Positions 4,846 through 13,396 of a stretch of 44,781 bases of DNA are shown one piece after another. Position numbers and translations under genes: made by a program. This stretch comes from Deltaproteobacteria bacterium (GTDB taxonomy: Bacteria; Myxococcota; Myxococcia; Myxococcales; SZAS-1). How positions within the stretch are numbered: position 1 is the stretch's first letter; every line of letters begins with the position of its first letter. The stretch lies in assembly GCA_018266075.1 (NCBI GenBank), contig JAFEBB010000060.1:1-44781 (forward strand), given 5' to 3'. The notes under the pieces are model-generated. The model was not told where the DNA came from and searched no databases. It worked only from the letters and a program-made list of their open reading frames with translations.

Positions 4846-5448
4846 ATGCGCGATCGCAACGCGACACTCTCGAAGATGCGCGAGCGCCTCGAAGCCGCCC
4901 AGGGGCTGGTGAACCGCAACGAGTATTCGGAGGCACGGGCAGAGTTCGTGAAGCTCGCCACGGAGCTCCAGCAGCTTGGCCTTCGCTCCGCGAACGTCCT
5001 TTGGGGCCTCGCGGTGGTCGCCGACTACCTCGGCGATCCCCGCGAGGCCATCACCCGGGTCGAGGAAGCCCTGGAGCTCGATCCGCTTGCTGTGTCCATC
5101 GCGAATTCAAAGGGGATCATCTTGAACCGCATCCGCTCCATGCTCTCCGACGTGACCCGGGCTCCCGATGATCCCACTACTCCTTCGCTGTACGAACTGC
5201 TGCTGGAACGTGGGGAGGCCGATGTCGACGCGCACCTCGCAATGGCACGGTTCTACAAGCACGCTGGCCATCATGCGGATGCGCTGCGCGTTCTCTCGGC
5301 ACTGACAACCCTCTACCCGCGCGCAGTGGAAGCTTGGGTGGCAATCGAGGAGGCAGCTCGTGCCGCTGGCAACAGTCACCTCGCCGAAGAGGCCGCTATC
5401 CAGGTGAAGCTGCTGGGTGCCTCTCTTGGCAAGGGCGCTCAGGCGTAG
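4846..5448 (+). CDS. TPR-repeat protein (paralogue of the gene at 6177)
   Basis: The 200-aa soluble protein is built of helical hairpins with tetratricopeptide-type spacing: an N-terminal pair (AQGLVNRNEYSEARAEFVKL), VLWGLAVVADYLGDPREAITRVEEALELDP, then HLAMARFYKHAGHHADALRVLSALTTLYPRAVEAW. TPR domains hold protein partners, so an adaptor or chaperone-like role is inferred. Start ATG 4846 follows AGGAG at 4834-4838. N- and C-termini align with the second TPR protein at 6177 (for example RVLSALTTLYPRAVEAW against RVLEAILTLAPRSRAAW), so the two are diverged duplicates flanking an unknown gene. No signal peptide is present. Confidence 0.75.
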   Translation: MRDRNATLSKMRERLEAAQGLVNRNEYSEARAEFVKLATELQQLGLRSANVLWGLAVVADYLGDPREAITRVEEALELDPLAVSIANSKGIILNRIRSMLSDVTRAPDDPTTPSLYELLLERGEADVDAHLAMARFYKHAGHHADALRVLSALTTLYPRAVEAWVAIEEAARAAGNSHLAEEAAIQVKLLGASLGKGAQA

Positions 5449-5483
5449 CTTCTTGACTGGCTCGCGACGTGGAGGGCCAACCC

Positions 5484-6074
5484 ATGGACATGGATATCGA
5501 CCTCGACGCGTACCGCCACCAGTTCGCTGACCGGCTGAGTGACTTCAAGTTGTTGTTCGGAGAGTACGGCGTCGACTTCTATGGCGTTCCGCAACTGCGG
5601 GGGATCATCGAGGCGCTCCCCGCGGCCGACCGCTTTCGATTCGTAGCTCTCATGTTTCTCGACGCGCTATTCGAATCTGCGCTTCACGAGAAGGCGACAC
5701 CCGGAGTCGATTCGCACAAACTGGTTGATCGACCGGCGTTCATCATAAACACGTACAACGTGCTCTTGATGCCTTCGGAAAACATTTCACATCGGCACCC
5801 ACAGGTTCTGCTCGGGCTGATTGGGCAGTGGCGGCCGGCCCACCTCGACGCGCTCGCACTGACGACGCGCGCGTATGTGGGGGTTCTGATCGATCGGCTC
5901 CCAAGGGCGGCGGGGCTCGAGGAACTCTTCCGTGCTCGGGTGGCGGAAATCTCTCAGGACCCCGATTTGCTCGAGACGAGTTTCGATCCTGTAGGTCTCC
6001 ATATCGCGGAAACCGTTCGAGACACCTACTTGGAGGCCCTGCGGGCATCGGCGACTGCCGTCTCGTCAAGGTGA
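5484..6074 (+). CDS. hypothetical protein, 196 aa, between two TPR genes
   Basis: Not recognised. ATG 5484 is chosen because GGAGG lies at 5471-5475 with 8-base spacing; a GTG at 5469 overlaps that site. The N-terminus is acidic (MDMDIDLDAYR). The rest is a mostly helical, soluble protein with aromatic clusters (FKLLFGEYGVDFYGVPQL; RFRFVALMFLDALFESALHE) and a C-terminal helix rich in Leu/Ala. There is no catalytic motif that I can name. Position between two TPR paralogues, in the same direction with 35- and 102-base gaps, suggests a client or partner of the TPR proteins. Confidence 0.65.
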   Translation: MDMDIDLDAYRHQFADRLSDFKLLFGEYGVDFYGVPQLRGIIEALPAADRFRFVALMFLDALFESALHEKATPGVDSHKLVDRPAFIINTYNVLLMPSENISHRHPQVLLGLIGQWRPAHLDALALTTRAYVGVLIDRLPRAAGLEELFRARVAEISQDPDLLETSFDPVGLHIAETVRDTYLEALRASATAVSSR

Positions 6075-6176
6075 TACCAAAGAGGGTCTATTGTTCCTCT
6101 CCTTTGTACCGTTGCCGCCCGTCTATGTCGCAACTGCAATGTTCTACTGCCCGTACGAAGCACGGAGGCCCAAAGG

Positions 6177-6836
6177 ATGAGCGCCGAAACAGATCGAGAT
6201 GCTGTGAAGGCGCGGCTCAATGAGGCCCGCGCACTACTCGAGGAATCATCCTACGCGGAAGCCGAGTCCCTGCTCGCACCGCTCGACCAGGAGCTCAATC
6301 TGGCTGGCTTTGTCTCGGCTGAGACGGCGTACCTCCGGGCTTGGGTCCGCATGGGTGCGGCGTCCCTTGAGTTCCGCCAAGGAGCAATCGCGGAGGCGTC
6401 CACCCTACTCGGTGACGCCCTGGACCGCGTCAAGACGTCCTTGCGGCTCGATGCCGGGTCCAGCGACGCACAAGCGCTGCAGGAGGCGGTTCGCTCCGAA
6501 TTGTATAAGGCCGTGTCGCATTTCGCGTCACTCGGGCAGGACCGCGATGCCCTCGCCTTCTACGACACGCTCCGCTGCCGCGAGTTTGCTTCTGGCGAAG
6601 AAACCCACGTCACGGCGGCGAGCTGCCTGCACCGACTCGGGCAAATCGACGACGCGCAACGCGTCCTCGAGGCAATCCTCACTCTGGCCCCGCGGAGCCG
6701 GGCGGCGTGGACCGCCCTCAGTGAGGTGGCGAAGAAGATCGGTGATGCGGAGCTCGAGGAATCATGCGAGCTGGAGTTGTCCACCCTTGAGCCTTTCGCG
6801 CTGCCGCGGCTGCTGCCCGAACTGAAAAAGCTATGA
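6177..6836 (+). CDS. TPR-repeat protein (paralogue of the gene at 4846)
   Basis: The 219-aa helical protein has TPR-like hairpins: ARALLEESSYAEAESLLAPLDQEL, YLRAWVRMGAASLEFRQGAIAEASTLLGDALDRV, SHFASLGQDRDALAFYDTL, and CLHRLGQIDDAQRVLEAILTLAPRSRAAW. Start ATG 6177 has GGAGG at 6163-6167. The order of hairpins and the terminal motif match the gene at 4846, with an extra central hairpin. The preceding 102-base gap contains AT-richer sequence and an imperfect inverted repeat (TACCAAAGAG near 6077 and CTCCTTTGTA near 6100). It ends convergently 64 bases from the minus-strand operon starting at 8632. Function beyond protein-protein contact is unknown. Confidence 0.75.
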   Translation: MSAETDRDAVKARLNEARALLEESSYAEAESLLAPLDQELNLAGFVSAETAYLRAWVRMGAASLEFRQGAIAEASTLLGDALDRVKTSLRLDAGSSDAQALQEAVRSELYKAVSHFASLGQDRDALAFYDTLRCREFASGEETHVTAASCLHRLGQIDDAQRVLEAILTLAPRSRAAWTALSEVAKKIGDAELEESCELELSTLEPFALPRLLPELKKL

Positions 6837-6899
6837 AGTATGCCGCACCTGGAGCCTTGCGCGCCCAACCAAGGACGCACAGGCGATGACCACGGATGT

Positions 6900-7733
6900 C
6901 TAGCCTCGTTCGTCTGGTTTCCTGGTCACCCCAAGCTGAAACAAGTGGCTCCACCGCACGAGCACGACAGACTGGGCATATTCGTCGACCCAAATATCAA
7001 GGCCCTCGCGCGTAGCCACGAGCTCCAATCCTGAAACGCGGAGGCCAGAGGTCCGCTCGGCTCCTACCTCTCGTGCTCTTGGGTGTTCTGGGCCCAGCGC
7101 CCACGCAGTGACGATTCGCGCCAATGCAGCACTGGGAGGCAAGTTCCTCCGCGGGTAGCGAAGGAGTCTCAGAGACTGGAGCTCTCTTGGCCCCAGGAAG
7201 GCGGGGCCCGCGTCGTGCTCCGTCGCAGTGACGAGAAGCCCCCGCGCATTGGTCTCGAAGTGCAGCCCACTGCGAACCAGCGGTCCACACTCGTCGCACA
7301 TCGATTGCGCCTCGATCAGGAGCCTCGCGCGAATGACGTCTCCGGCTACCAGAATGCGCCAGGCAATTGCCTTCAGTAGATCGTCAGCATCTGCGCGTCC
7401 CTCGTCCCGCCTGGATACGTCGCAAGAGCTGCCTTCCTCTGGGCCGTGTCTGTCAACGAGGCGCAGTCGGGTCTGACCCGACCGGCGGGCCAACTGTGCA
7501 GCACGAGCAATGGCTTCGCCCTCGAAGAACTGGCCGAAGGCCACCGCCAGGTCCTTCACGTTGGAAGGCGGCGGATCTCCCAGTTCGGCGCGCCGCGGAT
7601 CACCCCGGGCGATTGGATAGATCACGCGCCGCAACAGCTGATCGAGGTCTTCCAGGTCGAGATTCAGATCGAGCTGCTCGAGGTCTGGATGCAGATTCGC
7701 CGAAGCGATGTCGGGTCTCCAGAGGCGGGCCAT
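6900..7733 (-). CDS. hypothetical protein, third gene of the FHA operon
   Basis: Not recognised. The 277-aa protein starts at ATG 7733 with GAGGGAAGG 8 bases upstream; a GTG at 7742 sits directly on that site. The N-terminal third is rich in Leu/Asp (LHPDLEQLDLNLDLEDLDQLLRRVIYPIARGD). The middle has FGQFFEGEAIARAAQLARRSGQTR and a Cys pair (SMCDECGPL) that might bind a metal. The C-terminus is beta-rich (GLRVSGLELVATREGLDIWVDEYAQSVVLVRWSHLFQLGV). It follows the FHA gene by 18 bases, so co-transcription is likely, and FHA-dependent contact with this protein is a reasonable guess. Confidence 0.62.
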   Translation of the reverse strand: MARLWRPDIASANLHPDLEQLDLNLDLEDLDQLLRRVIYPIARGDPRRAELGDPPPSNVKDLAVAFGQFFEGEAIARAAQLARRSGQTRLRLVDRHGPEEGSSCDVSRRDEGRADADDLLKAIAWRILVAGDVIRARLLIEAQSMCDECGPLVRSGLHFETNARGLLVTATEHDAGPAFLGPRELQSLRLLRYPRRNLPPSAALARIVTAWALGPEHPRAREVGAERTSGLRVSGLELVATREGLDIWVDEYAQSVVLVRWSHLFQLGVTRKPDERG

Positions 7734-7751
7734 CCCAAGCACCTTCCCTCT

Positions 7752-8090
7752 TCAGGCCGCTGCAGCGGAACGAGGCTGATAGCGAAGGAAGAGCCCTCCG
7801 CATTCCAACTGCGTGCCTCCGACGAGCCGCCCGGCCTGCACCTCTCGACCGCCCACGGTGATGCCGTTCGTACTGGCGAGGTCCAGCGCCCAGAGCTCAC
7901 CATCCCTGACCACCAACAGAGCGTGGACGCGCGACATCCGCCCGAGTCCTCGACTCGAGAGATTGCAGCGGGCATAGCGGCCCACGAGGATCCCTTCGCT
8001 CAGGAGCGACCAGGTCACCGGTAGCCGCTCCCTGCCTTCCATCTCCTCAGTCTCAACCTCGAGATGGCCACAAACGAGATCCCGGCCCAC
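7752..8090 (-). CDS. FHA-domain protein, 112 aa
   Basis: FHA domains bind phosphothreonine peptides. Here the canonical landmarks are present: ILVGRYARCNL (Gly-Arg), MSRVHALL (Ser-Arg-x-His) and LDLASTNGITVGG (the Asn-Gly loop). The reading is open far upstream of this domain, but in the zone 8100-8200 the other frame has better third-position GC. I therefore start this gene at GTG 8090, with AGGTGA overlapping the stop of the upstream gene (8099-8101). This gives a stand-alone FHA module, coupled to the upstream gene. The alternative is a single tandem-FHA gene broken by a frameshift near 8170-8200. Confidence 0.65.
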   Translation of the reverse strand: MGRDLVCGHLEVETEEMEGRERLPVTWSLLSEGILVGRYARCNLSSRGLGRMSRVHALLVVRDGELWALDLASTNGITVGGREVQAGRLVGGTQLECGGLFLRYQPRSAAAA

Positions 8091-8098
8091 CTCATCAC

Positions 8099-8632
8099 CT
8101 AGAGCAGCCAACGGCTTGACTCTGGTGACCTCCGTTGTGCCATCGCCAGGAGCAGGGAGTGCCTTCCGCTCGAGGCCACGCAGCGACTGGAGACGGACTC
8201 GAGGGTACCGAAGGCGCGGGCCACCACAGTCCAGCTGCCGAAAGTCACCGCAAATGAACCCGTCGCGGTGATGGCGGTCGCGAGCTCGCGTCCGAGGGTA
8301 TGCATCGGGAGCTCCGTGCGGAGGTCCCAAAGTCGCGTCTGCACCCCACCCGCTGCGACAACGGGAAGGATGGCCAGCTGGCGGAGCCCGACCCGGTGGT
8401 CCGCGATGCGCAGGCCGCACTGTTCGTGCCGGCCGATGATCAGTGGCGCATCGTGCCGGGCCACGGCCGTACCGACCAGCCGGCCGTTCATGTCGACCAC
8501 TGCCACCGCCAGCGGCGCATCCGGACCGAGCGGCGCGGCCTCGACGACCGACGCTGCAGCAGCCATGGCGGTGCTTGCCCTGCATGGCGAGTCGCGGAAG
8601 AGCGGGTCGACTCGGGTGCTCTCGTTGGACAT
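8099..8632 (-). CDS. degenerate FHA-like protein, 177 aa
   Basis: The start ATG 8632 has GAGAGGG just upstream. Residues about 38-110 follow the FHA pattern (VVDMNGRLVGTAV, LIIGRHEQCGLRI, WDLRTELPMHTLGRE), but the phosphothreonine-binding Ser-Arg-x-His and Asn residues are replaced (RVGLRQLA and LPMHT). It probably keeps the beta-sandwich without phosphopeptide binding. The last ~30 residues are Arg/Ser-rich and overlap, in another frame, a stretch that leads into the next FHA gene. First gene of a minus-strand operon divergent from the WYL regulator; GGCTGTCAG lies 41 bases upstream (8673-8681, minus strand). Confidence 0.6.
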   Translation of the reverse strand: MSNESTRVDPLFRDSPCRASTAMAAAASVVEAAPLGPDAPLAVAVVDMNGRLVGTAVARHDAPLIIGRHEQCGLRIADHRVGLRQLAILPVVAAGGVQTRLWDLRTELPMHTLGRELATAITATGSFAVTFGSWTVVARAFGTLESVSSRCVASSGRHSLLLAMAQRRSPESSRWLL

Positions 8633-8801
8633 GGCGCCCTCTCACGGTGGAGAGCCCTGAGGTCAGTCGCTTCTGACAGCCAGGAACGAGTGCCGCCGGT
8701 TGGCCGCGCTCCGTCAGAGCGGTCATCGCGCTCGGCTCTCATAAGCGAAACGTCCCGTCCCTCCCATGGACGTGACGTGGCACCGGGAGGCCCGGAAACT
8801 C

Positions 8802-9725
8802 ATGTCGAACCTCGAACGCAAGATCGCCCTCTGGCGCAAGCTGGCCGGTAGGAAGGAGGGCTACCGAATCAAGGAGCTTTCGGATGCGCTCGGGGTCTCC
8901 AAGAACACCATTCAGCGCGACATCGATGCACTGAGCCGCTGCGGTCTTCCAGTCCGCGAAGAGCGCGAGGGCCAGGCTCTTCGCTACTGGATCGAGCCAG
9001 GCGGGATCCCGGTCGCGCAGCTCACCCAATTGGAGCTCGGGTCCCTCGACGCAGCTTCCGCAGCCCTCAAACCGTTCGACCTCACGCCAATCTACGGCAA
9101 TTACGAATCCGGCCGAGCAAAGGTATCGCCTCGCTCCAACGGCGCAGCTTTCGAGACGTCGGAGCCGGTTGGTCCCAGGGTCACTCTGAGCGTCTACGAG
9201 CCGCTTCTCCAGGGGATCCTCGGGAGCCGGCGGTGCCGCATCCGCTACACCCCGCGCACAGAGAAGGAGCCGCGTGAGTACGAGGTCGAGCCGTACCAGT
9301 TCTTCCTGGCATACGGGGTGACCTACCTGCGTGCACGGGTGCCGCCCCATGCCGGACGGGCGCAGTTCCTCATGCACCGGATCTCCGAAGCGACGCTTAC
9401 TGACAGAGTGTTCGAGCGCAAGGCCCTGAAGACCACCGCCTTTAGGGTCTGGGAGTCCGAACCAGAGGACGTCGAGGTGGTCTTCTCTCCGAACATCGCG
9501 CCCCTCATCGCTGAGCGCTCCTGGCACCGCACACAGAAGCTCGAGCACCAACCTGACGGGAGCTTGGTCTTCAAGGCCAGTCTCTCTGGCAAGTCCGAGT
9601 TCGTGGGCTGGGTGATGTCCTGGGCGCCCTGGGCCGAGCTCGTGAAACCCGAGGCCTGGCGAAAGGAGCTGTTGGATCGCGCCGGACAGGCTGCTGAGAC
9701 ACACAAGTTGCGTCCTTGTGGCTGA
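8802..9725 (+). CDS. WYL-domain transcriptional regulator (HTH-WYL)
   Basis: The 307-aa protein has an N-terminal winged HTH (YRIKELSDALGVSKNTIQRDIDALSRCGLPV, about 24-55), a middle WYL ligand-binding domain (RIRYTPRTEKEPREYEVEPYQFFLAYGVTYLRARV), and a C-terminal WCX extension (EDVEVVFSPNIAPLIAERSWHRTQKLE ... EFVGWVMSWAPWAELVKP). WYL regulators sense nucleic acids or nucleotides and often control phage-defence or mobile-element genes (family knowledge). I take ATG 8802, which has GGGAGG upstream; ATG 8766 lacks a site. It is divergent from the FHA operon (start 8632), so it probably regulates that operon and itself from the 169-base gap. The 9762 gene follows in the same direction. Confidence 0.88.
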   Translation: MSNLERKIALWRKLAGRKEGYRIKELSDALGVSKNTIQRDIDALSRCGLPVREEREGQALRYWIEPGGIPVAQLTQLELGSLDAASAALKPFDLTPIYGNYESGRAKVSPRSNGAAFETSEPVGPRVTLSVYEPLLQGILGSRRCRIRYTPRTEKEPREYEVEPYQFFLAYGVTYLRARVPPHAGRAQFLMHRISEATLTDRVFERKALKTTAFRVWESEPEDVEVVFSPNIAPLIAERSWHRTQKLEHQPDGSLVFKASLSGKSEFVGWVMSWAPWAELVKPEAWRKELLDRAGQAAETHKLRPCG

Positions 9726-9761
9726 TGCAAATTCCCCTTCAAGCTCGCTGCGGAGATGGCA

Positions 9762-10616
9762 ATGAATTTCTCGCACCGAGTGAACCCTGGCGCAGCCTCC
9801 AAGGCTCTCGAGCGGATCCAGGGAAGGCTTCGGAGTTACTACCTACCCAAGAGCCCTTCCCCAGATTCGCTGGACGAGCTCGACCAACTCGGGCCGATCC
9901 AGGAGGTCCTGGCATGCCTTCGAGACATTCCGACGACGGGAAGGGGCGCCAGCGCTTCCCGCCTTCCAAGCACGCTGGGCCCCGACGGTCGCGTGGTACG
10001 GCCAGGGGAACCGGACCTCGAGCAGTATCTGGGAATGAGCCTGGCCGGTGCCGTTCGCGCCTCGGCACCCGGTTCACCGGAGCTTGGTGCACTGAAAGCG
10101 ATCCGCACTTCCCAGCTCGAGCGGCTTCGCCTTCAGCGTCTCAAGCGATTCTCAAAGAAGCACGGCGACCCACCAAGCGACGTGACGAGTCTCAGAGAAT
10201 TCTGGAACGCGGCCATGAATGAGCCAGTTCCGATCGAGGCGGAGGTCGATGAGATCCGCCTGGTCCCGCCCACCCTGAGGAAGCGGGGCAAGAACACGGT
10301 CCCGCAACTGAACCACGTGATCTGGCACCTCTATGTCGTGCTGCTTCCGTTCTACGTGGCGCGCCCGCGACTCCGCGATGACGACATCTCGGTCGCCAAA
10401 GAACCCGATTCGGACCGCCTCAAGGTCAAGGCGCATCGGCGCCACGCAATGTTTCCACGAGATCTCATTGTGGACATCGCCGACCTGCTCGACGGCGAAG
10501 TTGGTGCGCCGGACGCTCCCGTTACCACCGCCTACGTGAAGCGAGCGATTCAGGAGTTACTCGAGCGCATGCCAGAGCTTCGGCATCAACCTCCGAAAGC
10601 CCCTCGGCTTCGATAG
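9762..10616 (+). CDS. hypothetical protein downstream of the WYL regulator
   Basis: Not recognised; 284 aa from ATG 9762, which has GGAG at 9752-9755 (ATG 9756 is too close to it). The protein is basic and soluble: SKALERIQGRLRSYYLPKSP near the N-terminus, then TSQLERLRLQRLKRFSKKHGDPPSDVTSLREFWNAA. A more hydrophobic stretch (QLNHVIWHLYVVLLPFYVARP, about 180-200) follows, and a Pro-rich basic tail. It lies 36 bases after the WYL gene and is likely co-transcribed with it. The basic character would fit nucleic-acid contact, but no catalytic motif is visible. Confidence 0.62.
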   Translation: MNFSHRVNPGAASKALERIQGRLRSYYLPKSPSPDSLDELDQLGPIQEVLACLRDIPTTGRGASASRLPSTLGPDGRVVRPGEPDLEQYLGMSLAGAVRASAPGSPELGALKAIRTSQLERLRLQRLKRFSKKHGDPPSDVTSLREFWNAAMNEPVPIEAEVDEIRLVPPTLRKRGKNTVPQLNHVIWHLYVVLLPFYVARPRLRDDDISVAKEPDSDRLKVKAHRRHAMFPRDLIVDIADLLDGEVGAPDAPVTTAYVKRAIQELLERMPELRHQPPKAPRLR

Positions 10617-10630
10617 CCGACCAAGCAGGC

Positions 10631-11232
10631 TCAGCGCGCGCGAGCGCCGACCTCTTCGATCCACTTCGTCGCGACGCCGACGCCGTCTTCTCGCGCCATC
10701 GCTTCGCCGATCGCGTGCGCGCGTCGCGTCGCGTCGGAGTCGCGCAGCAGCGCGCCGATCTGCTCGGCGAGCCTGCGCGCGTCGAGCGACTGCGAGGCAC
10801 TGGCGCCGGTGCAATGCCGAACGCGCGGAGGCGATCGGCCCAGAAGAACTGGTCGCCGAGGAAGGGCACGATCACGCTCGACTTGCCTGCAAAGGTCGCC
10901 GTGTGCGTCGTGCCCGCGCCGCCGTGGTGCACGAATGCCGCGCAGCGCGGGAGCAAGAGCGCGTGCGGAGCGCGACCGAGTCGGGAAAACGTGCTCCGCA
11001 GTCGGTAGATCAGGCATGAGCTCCCACGCGTGGCGCGCGCCTTCGCGATGGCATCCACCGCCACCGCGCGCGCGTCGACGCCGAGTGAGCGCGCGAGCGT
11101 GGCGTAGTCTCGGCCATCGACCGCCACGAAGCCGAGCTTCACGTCGTGGCCGGCGCGCACCAGGCCGTGCGCGAGCGCGACGAAGGGCCGCACGTCGCCC
11201 TCGCTGCCCCACGTGTAGAGCCCGACCCTCAC
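10631..11232 (-). pseudogene. truncated, frameshifted MGT/UGT-type glycosyltransferase
   Basis: Two diagnostic pieces of a GT1-type glycosyltransferase remain. The N-terminus (GTG 11232; VRVGLYTWGSEGDVRPFVALAHGLVRAGHDV) is the acceptor-side nucleotide-binding start. The C-terminal donor-site motif is FVHHGGAGTTHTATFAGKSSVIVPFLGDQFFWADRL. They lie only about 45 residues apart instead of roughly 200, so the middle of the gene is deleted. Near 10795-10815 the frame also shifts: the expected end (LDARRLAEQIGALLRDSDATRRAHAIGEAMA) is in another frame. Normal length is about 400 residues; here about 200 codons remain. I call it a decayed gene at the island edge. Confidence 0.8.
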
Positions 11233-11300
11233 GCGCCGAGCATCGCACGATCGCGGGCTCGACCTGCGCACGCCGAGGAGGCGCAGGAGGACGCGTGCGT

Positions 11301-11485: not shown

Positions 11486-11848
11486 GTGCGCGGCGCCCGA
11501 GGTCTCAACCTTCACCCCTGTTTCGGAACGTCCGTGAGGTCATACCGCCGATAAGTGTCTCCGTCCCGCGTTCTGAACCTCGGATGCCTCACTGCCGCCA
11601 CACCGTGTGGCTGATGAATGCCTCGGCCTTGAAAGCAGTTTTCGACATACCCATAGACGGACACGACTCGCACGGTGGAACGAAGCGTTGCGCGCGCTAC
11701 GCCCATCACGCCAGAGGGCGGCGAATGGTGCAGGCACGACGGTGATCGGCATACCCGTCCTGGTGACGGTAGCCCCCGACGACACACGCCCCTTCCAGGC
11801 GAAATGTACTAACGGGTGCAGGTTGGCTGGGCTCGCCAGGCTTCGAGC
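11486..11848. other. intergenic stretch with only doubtful small readings
   Basis: A minus-strand reading of 64 codons (11512-11706, from an ATG at 11706) gives a protein-like end (HQPHGVAAVRHPRFRTRDGD) but no family I know and no clear ribosome-binding site. The plus strand is also open through part of this stretch. I see no RNA gene. It probably contains island-junction debris and the promoter of the HTH/integrase pair. Confidence 0.35.
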
Positions 11849-12160
11849 ATGGCGAACACGATCCCAGACTCACGACCCGACCATCCAGGGCTGGGCGATC
11901 AGGTACCCGAGGCATCTCAAGGGCACGAGGTCCACGACCTGACCGGGGAGCTGGTCGACCCCAACCACCTTCCGGTCGCACTGACCGTTGCCGAGGTGGC
12001 CGCCCTTCTCCGCCTCGACCCGCGCACCGTACGGCGGCTGATCCGGCTCGGCGATCTCGAGGGCAACCAGGCTGGCCATGCCATCCGCGTTCGCCGGGAC
12101 AGCGTACTAGAATGGCTTCGCGGCAAGCGTGCGTCTCGCTCACGAGGGAGTCCTCGATGA
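11849..12160 (+). CDS. excisionase-like HTH protein (MerR-type helix-turn-helix)
   Basis: The 103-aa protein carries a single helix-turn-helix of the DNA-binding excisionase type at about residues 43-88: ALTVAEVAALLRLDPRTVRRLIRLGDLEGNQAGHAIRVRRDSVLEWL. Such proteins steer integrases towards excision or act as small repressors. Its stop overlaps the integrase start (ATGA at 12157-12160), so the two are translationally coupled. I take ATG 11849; a GTG at 11816 is an alternative, and neither has a strong ribosome-binding site. The N-terminal 40 residues are Pro/His/Asp-rich and probably disordered. Confidence 0.8.
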   Translation: MANTIPDSRPDHPGLGDQVPEASQGHEVHDLTGELVDPNHLPVALTVAEVAALLRLDPRTVRRLIRLGDLEGNQAGHAIRVRRDSVLEWLRGKRASRSRGSPR

Positions 12161-13332
12161 GCGTGATGCAGAGGAAGTGGCGCGACCCGAAGACGGGCGC
12201 GCTGAGGAAGTCCTGGATGATCGACGTGACGGTGAGGATGCCGGACGGGTCGAGGTCGCCGCGCGTTCGCATGGCGGCCCCGGTCCAGACGCGCCGTGAC
12301 GCCGAGATCTTCGAAAGGAAGGTGCGCAACGAGATCGAGAATGGGACCTACGGGAAGAAGCCCGAGAAGAAGCTCGCACCCACGCTGAGGGAGTTCGCGC
12401 CCAAGGTGCTCGAGGCGGCCGAAGCCAACCGGTTGAAGCCGTCCACCATCGAGGCCAAGAAGCTCATCCTCGAAGGCCGGCTGATGCGAATGTTCGGCGA
12501 CAAGCGTCTCGACCAGTTCGACGAGCTCGACATCCAGCGCATCAAGGCCGAGATGAAGGAGCGGAACTCCAAGACGGTCAACAACGTCCTGTGCGTGCTC
12601 AACGGCACGCTGAAGCTCGCCGTGAAGCTGAAGGAGATCTCCGCCCTACCCGTCCACATCGAGCTCCTAAAGGTCGAGCTCCGCGACATGGATTTCTACG
12701 AGTTCGGCCAGTACACGGACCTCGTGGAGGCCGCAGGCAAGATCGATCGGCGCACCGTCGCCATGGTCTTGCTCGGGGGCGATGCCGGGCTCCGCCTCGG
12801 CGAGATCCTCGCGCTGGAGTGGACCGACGTCGACTTCAAGCGGAGGCAGCTCCGGATCCAGCGTGGCGAGTGGCGCGGCAAGGTGTCGCTGCCGAAGGGT
12901 GGTCGGGGCAGGAAGATCCCCATGACGAAGGCGCTCACCGCAGCGCTCGAAGACCTTCGACACCTTCGCGGTCCGCGGGTCTTCTACCGGGACGACGGCA
13001 CGCCCATGTCGCAGCAGACGCTGAAGAGCTGGATGGCCCAGGCGCAGAGGCGGGCGAACCTGGAGGTCACCGCAGGCCTCCACATCCTGCGCCACACCTT
13101 CTGCTCGCACCTCGCGATGAGGGCCGTGGCGCCGGTGACCATCAAGGAGCTGGCGGGCCACAAGAGCCTGTCGACGACGATGCGCTACATGCACCTGTCG
13201 CCGTCAGAGAAGGACCGGGCGATCGCCATGCTCGACGACCGCCCGGTGGAATCGATTAGCGAAACTCATGGCACATGCATGGCACATGAGGTGGTTTTCG
13301 AAGATAACCCGCGGCAACTACTACGTCCCTGA
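12157..13332 (+). CDS. int: tyrosine recombinase / site-specific integrase
   Basis: The 391-aa protein has an arm-binding-like N-terminus, a SAM-like core-binding domain (about 75-165) and the catalytic domain. All catalytic residues are visible: Arg213 (GDAGLRLGE), Lys247 (SLPKGGRGRK), His309 and Arg312 (LHILRHTF), His335 (LAGHKSL) and nucleophile Tyr344 (MRYMHLS). Start ATG 12157 overlaps the upstream stop and has GAGGGAG upstream. The last codons (CTA CGT CCC TGA) extend into the 3' end of the convergent tRNA-Glu gene, as expected for an element integrated at that tRNA. Intact and presumably active. The cargo lies to the left. Confidence 0.95.
   Translation: MSVMQRKWRDPKTGALRKSWMIDVTVRMPDGSRSPRVRMAAPVQTRRDAEIFERKVRNEIENGTYGKKPEKKLAPTLREFAPKVLEAAEANRLKPSTIEAKKLILEGRLMRMFGDKRLDQFDELDIQRIKAEMKERNSKTVNNVLCVLNGTLKLAVKLKEISALPVHIELLKVELRDMDFYEFGQYTDLVEAAGKIDRRTVAMVLLGGDAGLRLGEILALEWTDVDFKRRQLRIQRGEWRGKVSLPKGGRGRKIPMTKALTAALEDLRHLRGPRVFYRDDGTPMSQQTLKSWMAQAQRRANLEVTAGLHILRHTFCSHLAMRAVAPVTIKELAGHKSLSTTMRYMHLSPSEKDRAIAMLDDRPVESISETHGTCMAHEVVFEDNPRQLLRP
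13267..13288 (+). repeat. 11-base perfect tandem repeat in the integrase 3' end
   Basis: CATGGCACATG is present twice without gap (13267-13277 and 13278-13288). Each copy is itself a small inverted repeat (CATG-GCA-CATG). It lies about 36 bases from the tRNA end, where integrase-binding sites are expected, so it may be an accessory recombinase site. Confidence 0.7.
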
Positions 13333-13368
13333 CGGGATTCGAACCCGTGTTACCGGCTTGAAAGGCCA
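13324..13368. other. probable attachment site in tRNA-Glu 3' half
   Basis: The integrase gene ends within the tRNA 3' end, the usual arrangement for an att site where the element recreates the tRNA terminus. The exact core cannot be delimited because the second copy was not found anywhere to the left in this window. Limits given are the 3' half of the tRNA up to the anticodon loop. Confidence 0.45.
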
Positions 13369-13396
13369 GTGTCCTGGGCCTCTAGACGACAGGGAC
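13324..13396 (-). tRNA. trnE: tRNA-Glu (anticodon UUC)
   Basis: On the minus strand the gene runs from 13396 to 13324 (73 nt, CCA not encoded). The acceptor stem GTCCCTG pairs with CAGGGAC. The anticodon arm TGGCCTTTCAAGCC-type loop gives anticodon TTC. The T-arm contains GGGTTCGAATCCC. The 3' end overlaps the last 9 bases of the integrase gene, which marks this tRNA as the integration target. The gene itself is intact, so it still supplies tRNA-Glu. Confidence 0.95.

Follow-up and report, generated by a model that had tools for sequence, protein, structure and literature searches.

The block between 4.8 and 10.6 kb of the DNA studied here raises the question of whether its genes, which encode TPR, FHA and WYL proteins as well as three proteins of no known family, work together or only travel together on a mobile element. 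The window, meaning the whole stretch that was analysed, is the entire contig C60 (44,781 bases) of a 7.84-Mb draft genome from the phylum Myxococcota, and the close relatives searched belong mostly to the same order as the window genome. All genes of the block were found where the initial annotation had placed them, with two TPR reading frames (Pfam TPR) flanking one protein of no known family, and with a WYL regulator that is divergent from the FHA gene and followed by another such protein (Table 1). Each ORF in the block is the sole or nearly sole open frame of its stretch and has a coding-like codon profile, the weakest codon-position profile being that of 6900-7742. The best explanation, to which we give a probability of roughly 0.4, is that an integrative element at tRNA-Glu carries these genes as cargo and that they serve WYL-controlled signalling by Ser/Thr phosphorylation, through a tandem-FHA protein with TPR scaffolds.

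Table 1. Features of the block and of the adjoining end of the element, in window coordinates.
Feature	Position	Strand	Basis or remark
TPR1, ~200-aa TPR protein, Myxococcales family	4846-5448	+	Pfam TPR; profile search; tree
Orphan protein, 196 aa	5484-6074	+	predicted mostly helical, pLDDT 45 (low confidence)
TPR2, diverged TPR1 paralogue	6177-6836	+	Pfam TPR; match to TPR family profile; groups with TPR1 (long branch)
Orphan protein, 280 aa, one CxxC pair	6900-7742	-	coding, weakly supported by codon profile
Tandem-FHA C-terminal half, canonical FHA (GR, SRVH, STNG)	7752-8190	-	Pfam FHA 2.8e-7; colinear with single-ORF relatives
Tandem-FHA N-terminal half, degenerate FHA and N-terminal STRVD motif	8200-8632	-	matches in 18 of 193 genomes; alignment; frame analysis
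Divergent intergenic region, tandem-FHA gene/WYL	8633-8765		133 bp
WYL+WCX transcription regulator with N-terminal helix-turn-helix	8766-9725	+	Pfam HTH_11 3e-7, WYL 3e-10, WCX 5e-14
Lineage-specific protein, 286 aa	9756-10616	+	starts 31 bp past WYL gene
HTH_17 excisionase-like gene of element	11816-12160	+	Pfam HTH_17 9e-13
Tyrosine integrase	12112-13332	+	Pfam Phage_integrase 4e-28; abuts tRNA-Glu
tRNA-Glu	13324-13396	-	3' end of integrase runs onto tRNA-Glu

With regard to the element itself, the integrase ends on tRNA-Glu and the GC content drops to the left of these two genes, so that the integrative element proposed in the initial annotation is a reasonable reading. A search for a duplicate att site (27 nt, up to two mismatches) found none, and since there is no second att copy and the window is a whole contig, the left end of the element is undefined. 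The same element also carries a gene for an LRAT-domain protein (637-1476, Pfam 4.5e-21), the C-terminal half of which is long, Gly/Ala-rich and hydrophobic. Between the block and the integrase, 10522-11271 encodes a probable truncated glycosyltransferase, whose N- and C-terminal parts seem to be fused with the middle missing.

The initial annotation had read the FHA genes as a degenerate and a real member of a pair. Both FHA domains are indeed present on the minus strand, but as judged by sequence comparison they are two halves of one frame-split gene. When used as queries against about 190 Myxococcota genomes, both halves matched one set of ORFs, with their order preserved, and at least 22 Myxococcota loci contain one ORF, typically of 300-350 aa, that is matched by both. 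In the alignment (~300 aa) the two frames of the window are colinear with 30 relatives, the closest identity being 33% over 287 columns (to L089). The window gene is not a single uninterrupted frame: the frame switches near 8200-8100, and the ORF of the N-terminal half extends out of register to 8099. Given this split, the adaptor may be inactive or made as two pieces, or the split may be an assembly error.

The first FHA domain has GRH and S/A-L-R-H/Q, and the NG of canonical domains is usually absent. The second domain keeps GR (GRYARC in the window), SRVH and STNG, the residues expected of a phospho-threonine-binding domain. N-terminal to the first FHA domain, 24 of the 31 family members have a Thr-Arg-hydrophobic motif; these include the window (8617-8609, minus strand) and, for example, L089:9399-10370 and L121:8837-9784. 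If the protein works like GarA and OdhI, the motif might serve as a phospho-ligand for its own FHA domain, which makes it a candidate phospho-threonine switch. GarA and OdhI, which act with PknG in Actinobacteria, are likewise small FHA proteins with a threonine motif N-terminal to the FHA domain, and in the PknG/OdhI pathway a TPR scaffold guides phosphorylation of the FHA protein (PMC8546545). In contrast to these, the window gene has two FHA domains of which the first is degenerate, its TPRs are separate proteins, the block holds no kinase and the phylum is another one; the feature of a GarA/OdhI-type switch that was seen here is the conserved Thr-Arg-hydrophobic motif, and no sequence test placed the protein in that group. 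Hanks kinases lie near some of the solo tandem-FHA genes.

The ~200-aa TPR family was detected by profile search in 22 of 193 Myxococcota genomes. TPR1 is matched from position 1 to 191 of its 203 residues (E 1e-77) by a profile that contains TPR1 itself, and its independent pairwise scores against the L107 and L108 members were 50-98 bits. The two TPR proteins had been described as paralogues, and TPR2 is related to TPR1 but very diverged, scoring 47 bits against the family profile compared with 262 bits for TPR1, which is included in it. A PADLOC match of TPR2 to PtuA spans 41 residues and is low-scoring, and was hence discounted as evidence. In two Myxococcales families, metK (S-adenosylmethionine synthetase) is preceded immediately, or almost so, by a TPR-family gene (L108:7071-9453 and L134:9551-11638).

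The regulator has the N-terminal helix-turn-helix, the WYL domain and the WCX domain of the WYL/WCX family. Its nearest relatives, at 44-46% identity, are in G106 and G151, and a scan of genome contigs with the WYL protein returned nothing beyond these two. One of them sits in an integrase-bearing island and the other adjoins a helicase of the PLD/SNF2 type with matches to defence models; FHA and TPR genes are absent from these islands. The regulator resembles BrxR, CapW and PafBC in its domains, in its location in an accessory island and in having divergent or adjacent cargo. It differs from them in adjoining an FHA gene instead of a known defence system, PADLOC detecting no system in the block, and in the absence of a BrxR-like operator repeat, since the 133-bp intergenic region contains no inverted repeat above what shuffled sequences give by chance. 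BrxR homologues without inverted repeats do exist (PMC9122601). Elsewhere, stand-alone ORFs of 86-107 aa match the window WYL protein at 44-53% over its helix-turn-helix part and nowhere else (L032:8728-10084, L034:3755-4015 and L035:9422-9745), and in L032 one of them is divergent from an adjoining full WYL gene.

The tandem-FHA, TPR and WYL proteins are thus members of real families with relatives in the Myxococcota, whereas the three other proteins have no known family. For the 5484 protein, neither a convincing family in Pfam, PADLOC, PHROGs or NCBIfam nor a relative among 195 Myxococcota genomes was found. The 7742 protein also lacks a family in these collections and a relative among 189 genomes, save for an off-frame chance match; this apparent homologue in G124 (E 7e-5) was rejected because it falls in an ORF that overlaps, in another frame, what appears to be the real gene. 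For the 9756 protein the searches gave one relative, which is 65% identical and is encoded on contig C66 of its own genome (L005:8547-9398), and a scan of genome contigs with the pair gave no matches. The C66 copy has none of the WYL, FHA or TPR genes of the block nearby, and both copies precede an excisionase-like HTH gene on the same strand, about 0.6 and 1.2 kb downstream. Being alone on C66 and followed by such a gene in both places, the 9756 protein looks like a gene of the element and not like a partner of WYL. Viral contigs yielded no relatives for four queries and plasmids none for two. Structure predictions were poor (pLDDT 45 for the 5484 protein and 41 for the 9756 protein) and PDB sequence matches for the three lineage-specific proteins were marginal; the profile matches of the 9756 protein to designed SAKe proteins, covering ~35 residues, of which no single stretch passed by itself, were set aside. 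All three proteins may be passengers, and as two of them lack relatives and the third is found elsewhere by itself, the system of six or seven genes originally described is unsupported.

Whether the remaining gene types are associated was examined by fetching the regions around TPR, tandem-FHA and WYL loci, which were then cross-searched; several of the linked loci were selected since both matches shared one contig. Family searches provided the names PD-(D/E)XK nuclease (AddB), NERD helicase, WYL, GGDEF and esterase, and sequence inspection those of AddA, vWA and metK. G150 (L107, C326:11000-30900) has two adjacent TPR genes, a NERD helicase, AddA, AddB, WYL and tandem-FHA within ~12 kb, and G109 (L125) has AddA, AddB, WYL and tandem-FHA. 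The tandem-FHA gene is near or adjoining WYL in G069, G070 and G071 (a single genus) and more loosely linked to it, at 7 kb, in G193. G148 (L108) combines tandem-FHA with an esterase-like gene, an FHA-GGDEF protein and two adjacent TPR genes, and G035 and G036 contain AddB, AddA, a vWA protein, TPR and WYL. Tandem-FHA and WYL are thereby neighbours in four lineages besides the window, and a TPR pair accompanies tandem-FHA in two genomes (G148 and G150). The gap between WYL and tandem-FHA is 7 bp in L121, about 30 bp in L107 by homologous starts, ~1 kb in L105, ~1.4 kb in L125 and ~2.6 kb in L106. AddAB is present in L107, L125, L129 and L131, and a NERD helicase in 7 of the 22 TPR loci. Within the Myxococcales, the linked tandem-FHA, TPR-family and WYL genes often have these DNA-repair enzymes beside them. 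AddA/AddB, WYL, NERD-UvrD helicase, vWA, the ~200-aa TPR protein and tandem-FHA occur in varying combinations in L107, L125, L129, L131 and L134.

Compared with the AddAB-WYL-FHA-TPR neighbourhoods of L107, L125, L129 and L131, in which the same gene types lie within 5-20 kb, the window has no AddAB, NERD helicase or vWA gene, and its copies come from other family branches. The exact block is conserved in none of the genomes examined. In the trees, the window tandem-FHA falls among solo genes on the chromosomes of other genera, outside the WYL-linked clade (weak support, long branch), and both window TPR proteins cluster with TPR genes lacking an FHA or WYL neighbour. As the window copies are not the nearest kin of the linked copies, the window arrangement probably arose separately, either by convergent association or by chance. 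The co-occurrence that the initial annotation had named as a check thus gave a mixed outcome, in that tandem-FHA is linked to WYL and to TPR elsewhere, above rough chance, but the full block is not conserved. The idea of one working system accordingly gains partial support for WYL, tandem-FHA and TPR as recurrent neighbours, and none for the three other proteins. We read part of the window cargo as belonging to a recurrent myxobacterial neighbourhood.

These data also leave a good deal of room for coincidence, namely that unrelated accessory genes, some of them decaying, gathered in one integrative element and have no joint function, which we consider a realistic possibility. The split FHA gene and the truncated glycosyltransferase would be the decaying genes, the nearest kin of every window family member sit in other contexts, and gene order and strand are unlike those of the linked loci; the orphan proteins, and the 9756 protein standing alone on C66, fit the same picture. 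What speaks against coincidence is that the same three gene types recur as neighbours in other lineages: a WYL gene lies within 3 kb of five of ~36 tandem-FHA genes (in three lineages) where ~0.2 would be expected, a back-of-envelope, uncorrected figure that takes a 9-Mb genome to hold some ten WYL genes.

A defence role is possible, and the WYL family is known for regulators of defence and DNA-damage genes (PMC9122601, PMC11804915). That the block is a dedicated anti-phage system, with its effector among the three orphan proteins and silenced by the WYL regulator, nevertheless seems unlikely to us. Defence islands often contain WYL regulators (PMC9122601), one of the two closest WYL relatives has the helicase mentioned above beside it, the block is element-borne, and AddAB and NERD helicase occur in related neighbourhoods. 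However, no core genes of characterised anti-phage systems were matched in the block, strong PADLOC-DB matches being limited to WYL-related models; the block does not recur as a unit, the candidate effectors have no relatives, and no catalytic motif is recognisable. A secretion or motility scaffold of the T3SS or gliding type, hinted at by weak matches to Yop-YscD_cpl (9e-4) and GltG (1e-6) for FHA and to the chaperone profile LcrH_SycD (0.003) for TPR, is very improbable, as these matches are far under curated cut-offs and restricted to the generic FHA or TPR fold (we took those to YscD and GltG as generic FHA similarity), and no membrane, ATPase or secretin genes were recognised in the 4.8-10.6 kb block.

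In the phosphorylation signalling that we favour, the WYL protein would sense a nucleotide or nucleic-acid signal, such as might arise from DNA damage or invasion, and control the divergent tandem-FHA operon accordingly. A Hanks-type kinase of the host would phosphorylate the N-terminal threonine of the Thr-Arg-hydrophobic motif, and the C-terminal FHA domain might then bind this phospho-threonine or a partner, as in GarA and OdhI, with the TPR proteins presumably serving as scaffolds. Pfam, NCBIfam, PADLOC and PHROGs bear out the initial annotation in that the block encodes nothing recognisable as a kinase, nuclease or toxin, and with no catalytic gene recognised any effect would have to come through host kinases or the orphan proteins. 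The lack of a kinase, the split FHA frame, the two orphan partner ORFs and the missing operator-like inverted repeat all count against this signalling explanation, as does the fact that the nearest kin of the window tandem-FHA, WYL and TPR1 lie outside the linked loci. A bolder version, which we hold to be distinctly improbable, is a so far undescribed stress or anti-invader module of myxobacteria in which WYL, as a sensor of nucleic-acid damage, would control a tandem-FHA phospho-switch and TPR scaffolds acting with DNA processing by AddAB and the NERD helicase. Such a module would be a bacterial analogue of kinase-FHA DNA-damage signalling, and the window a mobile, reduced version of it with three new partners.

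If the neighbourhood is functional, it would mean that Ser/Thr phospho-signalling through FHA domains is tied in myxobacteria to DNA repair or defence genes under WYL control, a connection of which a limited literature search found no report. If it is not, the window exemplifies how accessory genes cluster in islands and come to resemble a system. The wider neighbourhood with AddAB and the NERD helicase is a more interesting lead than the window block.
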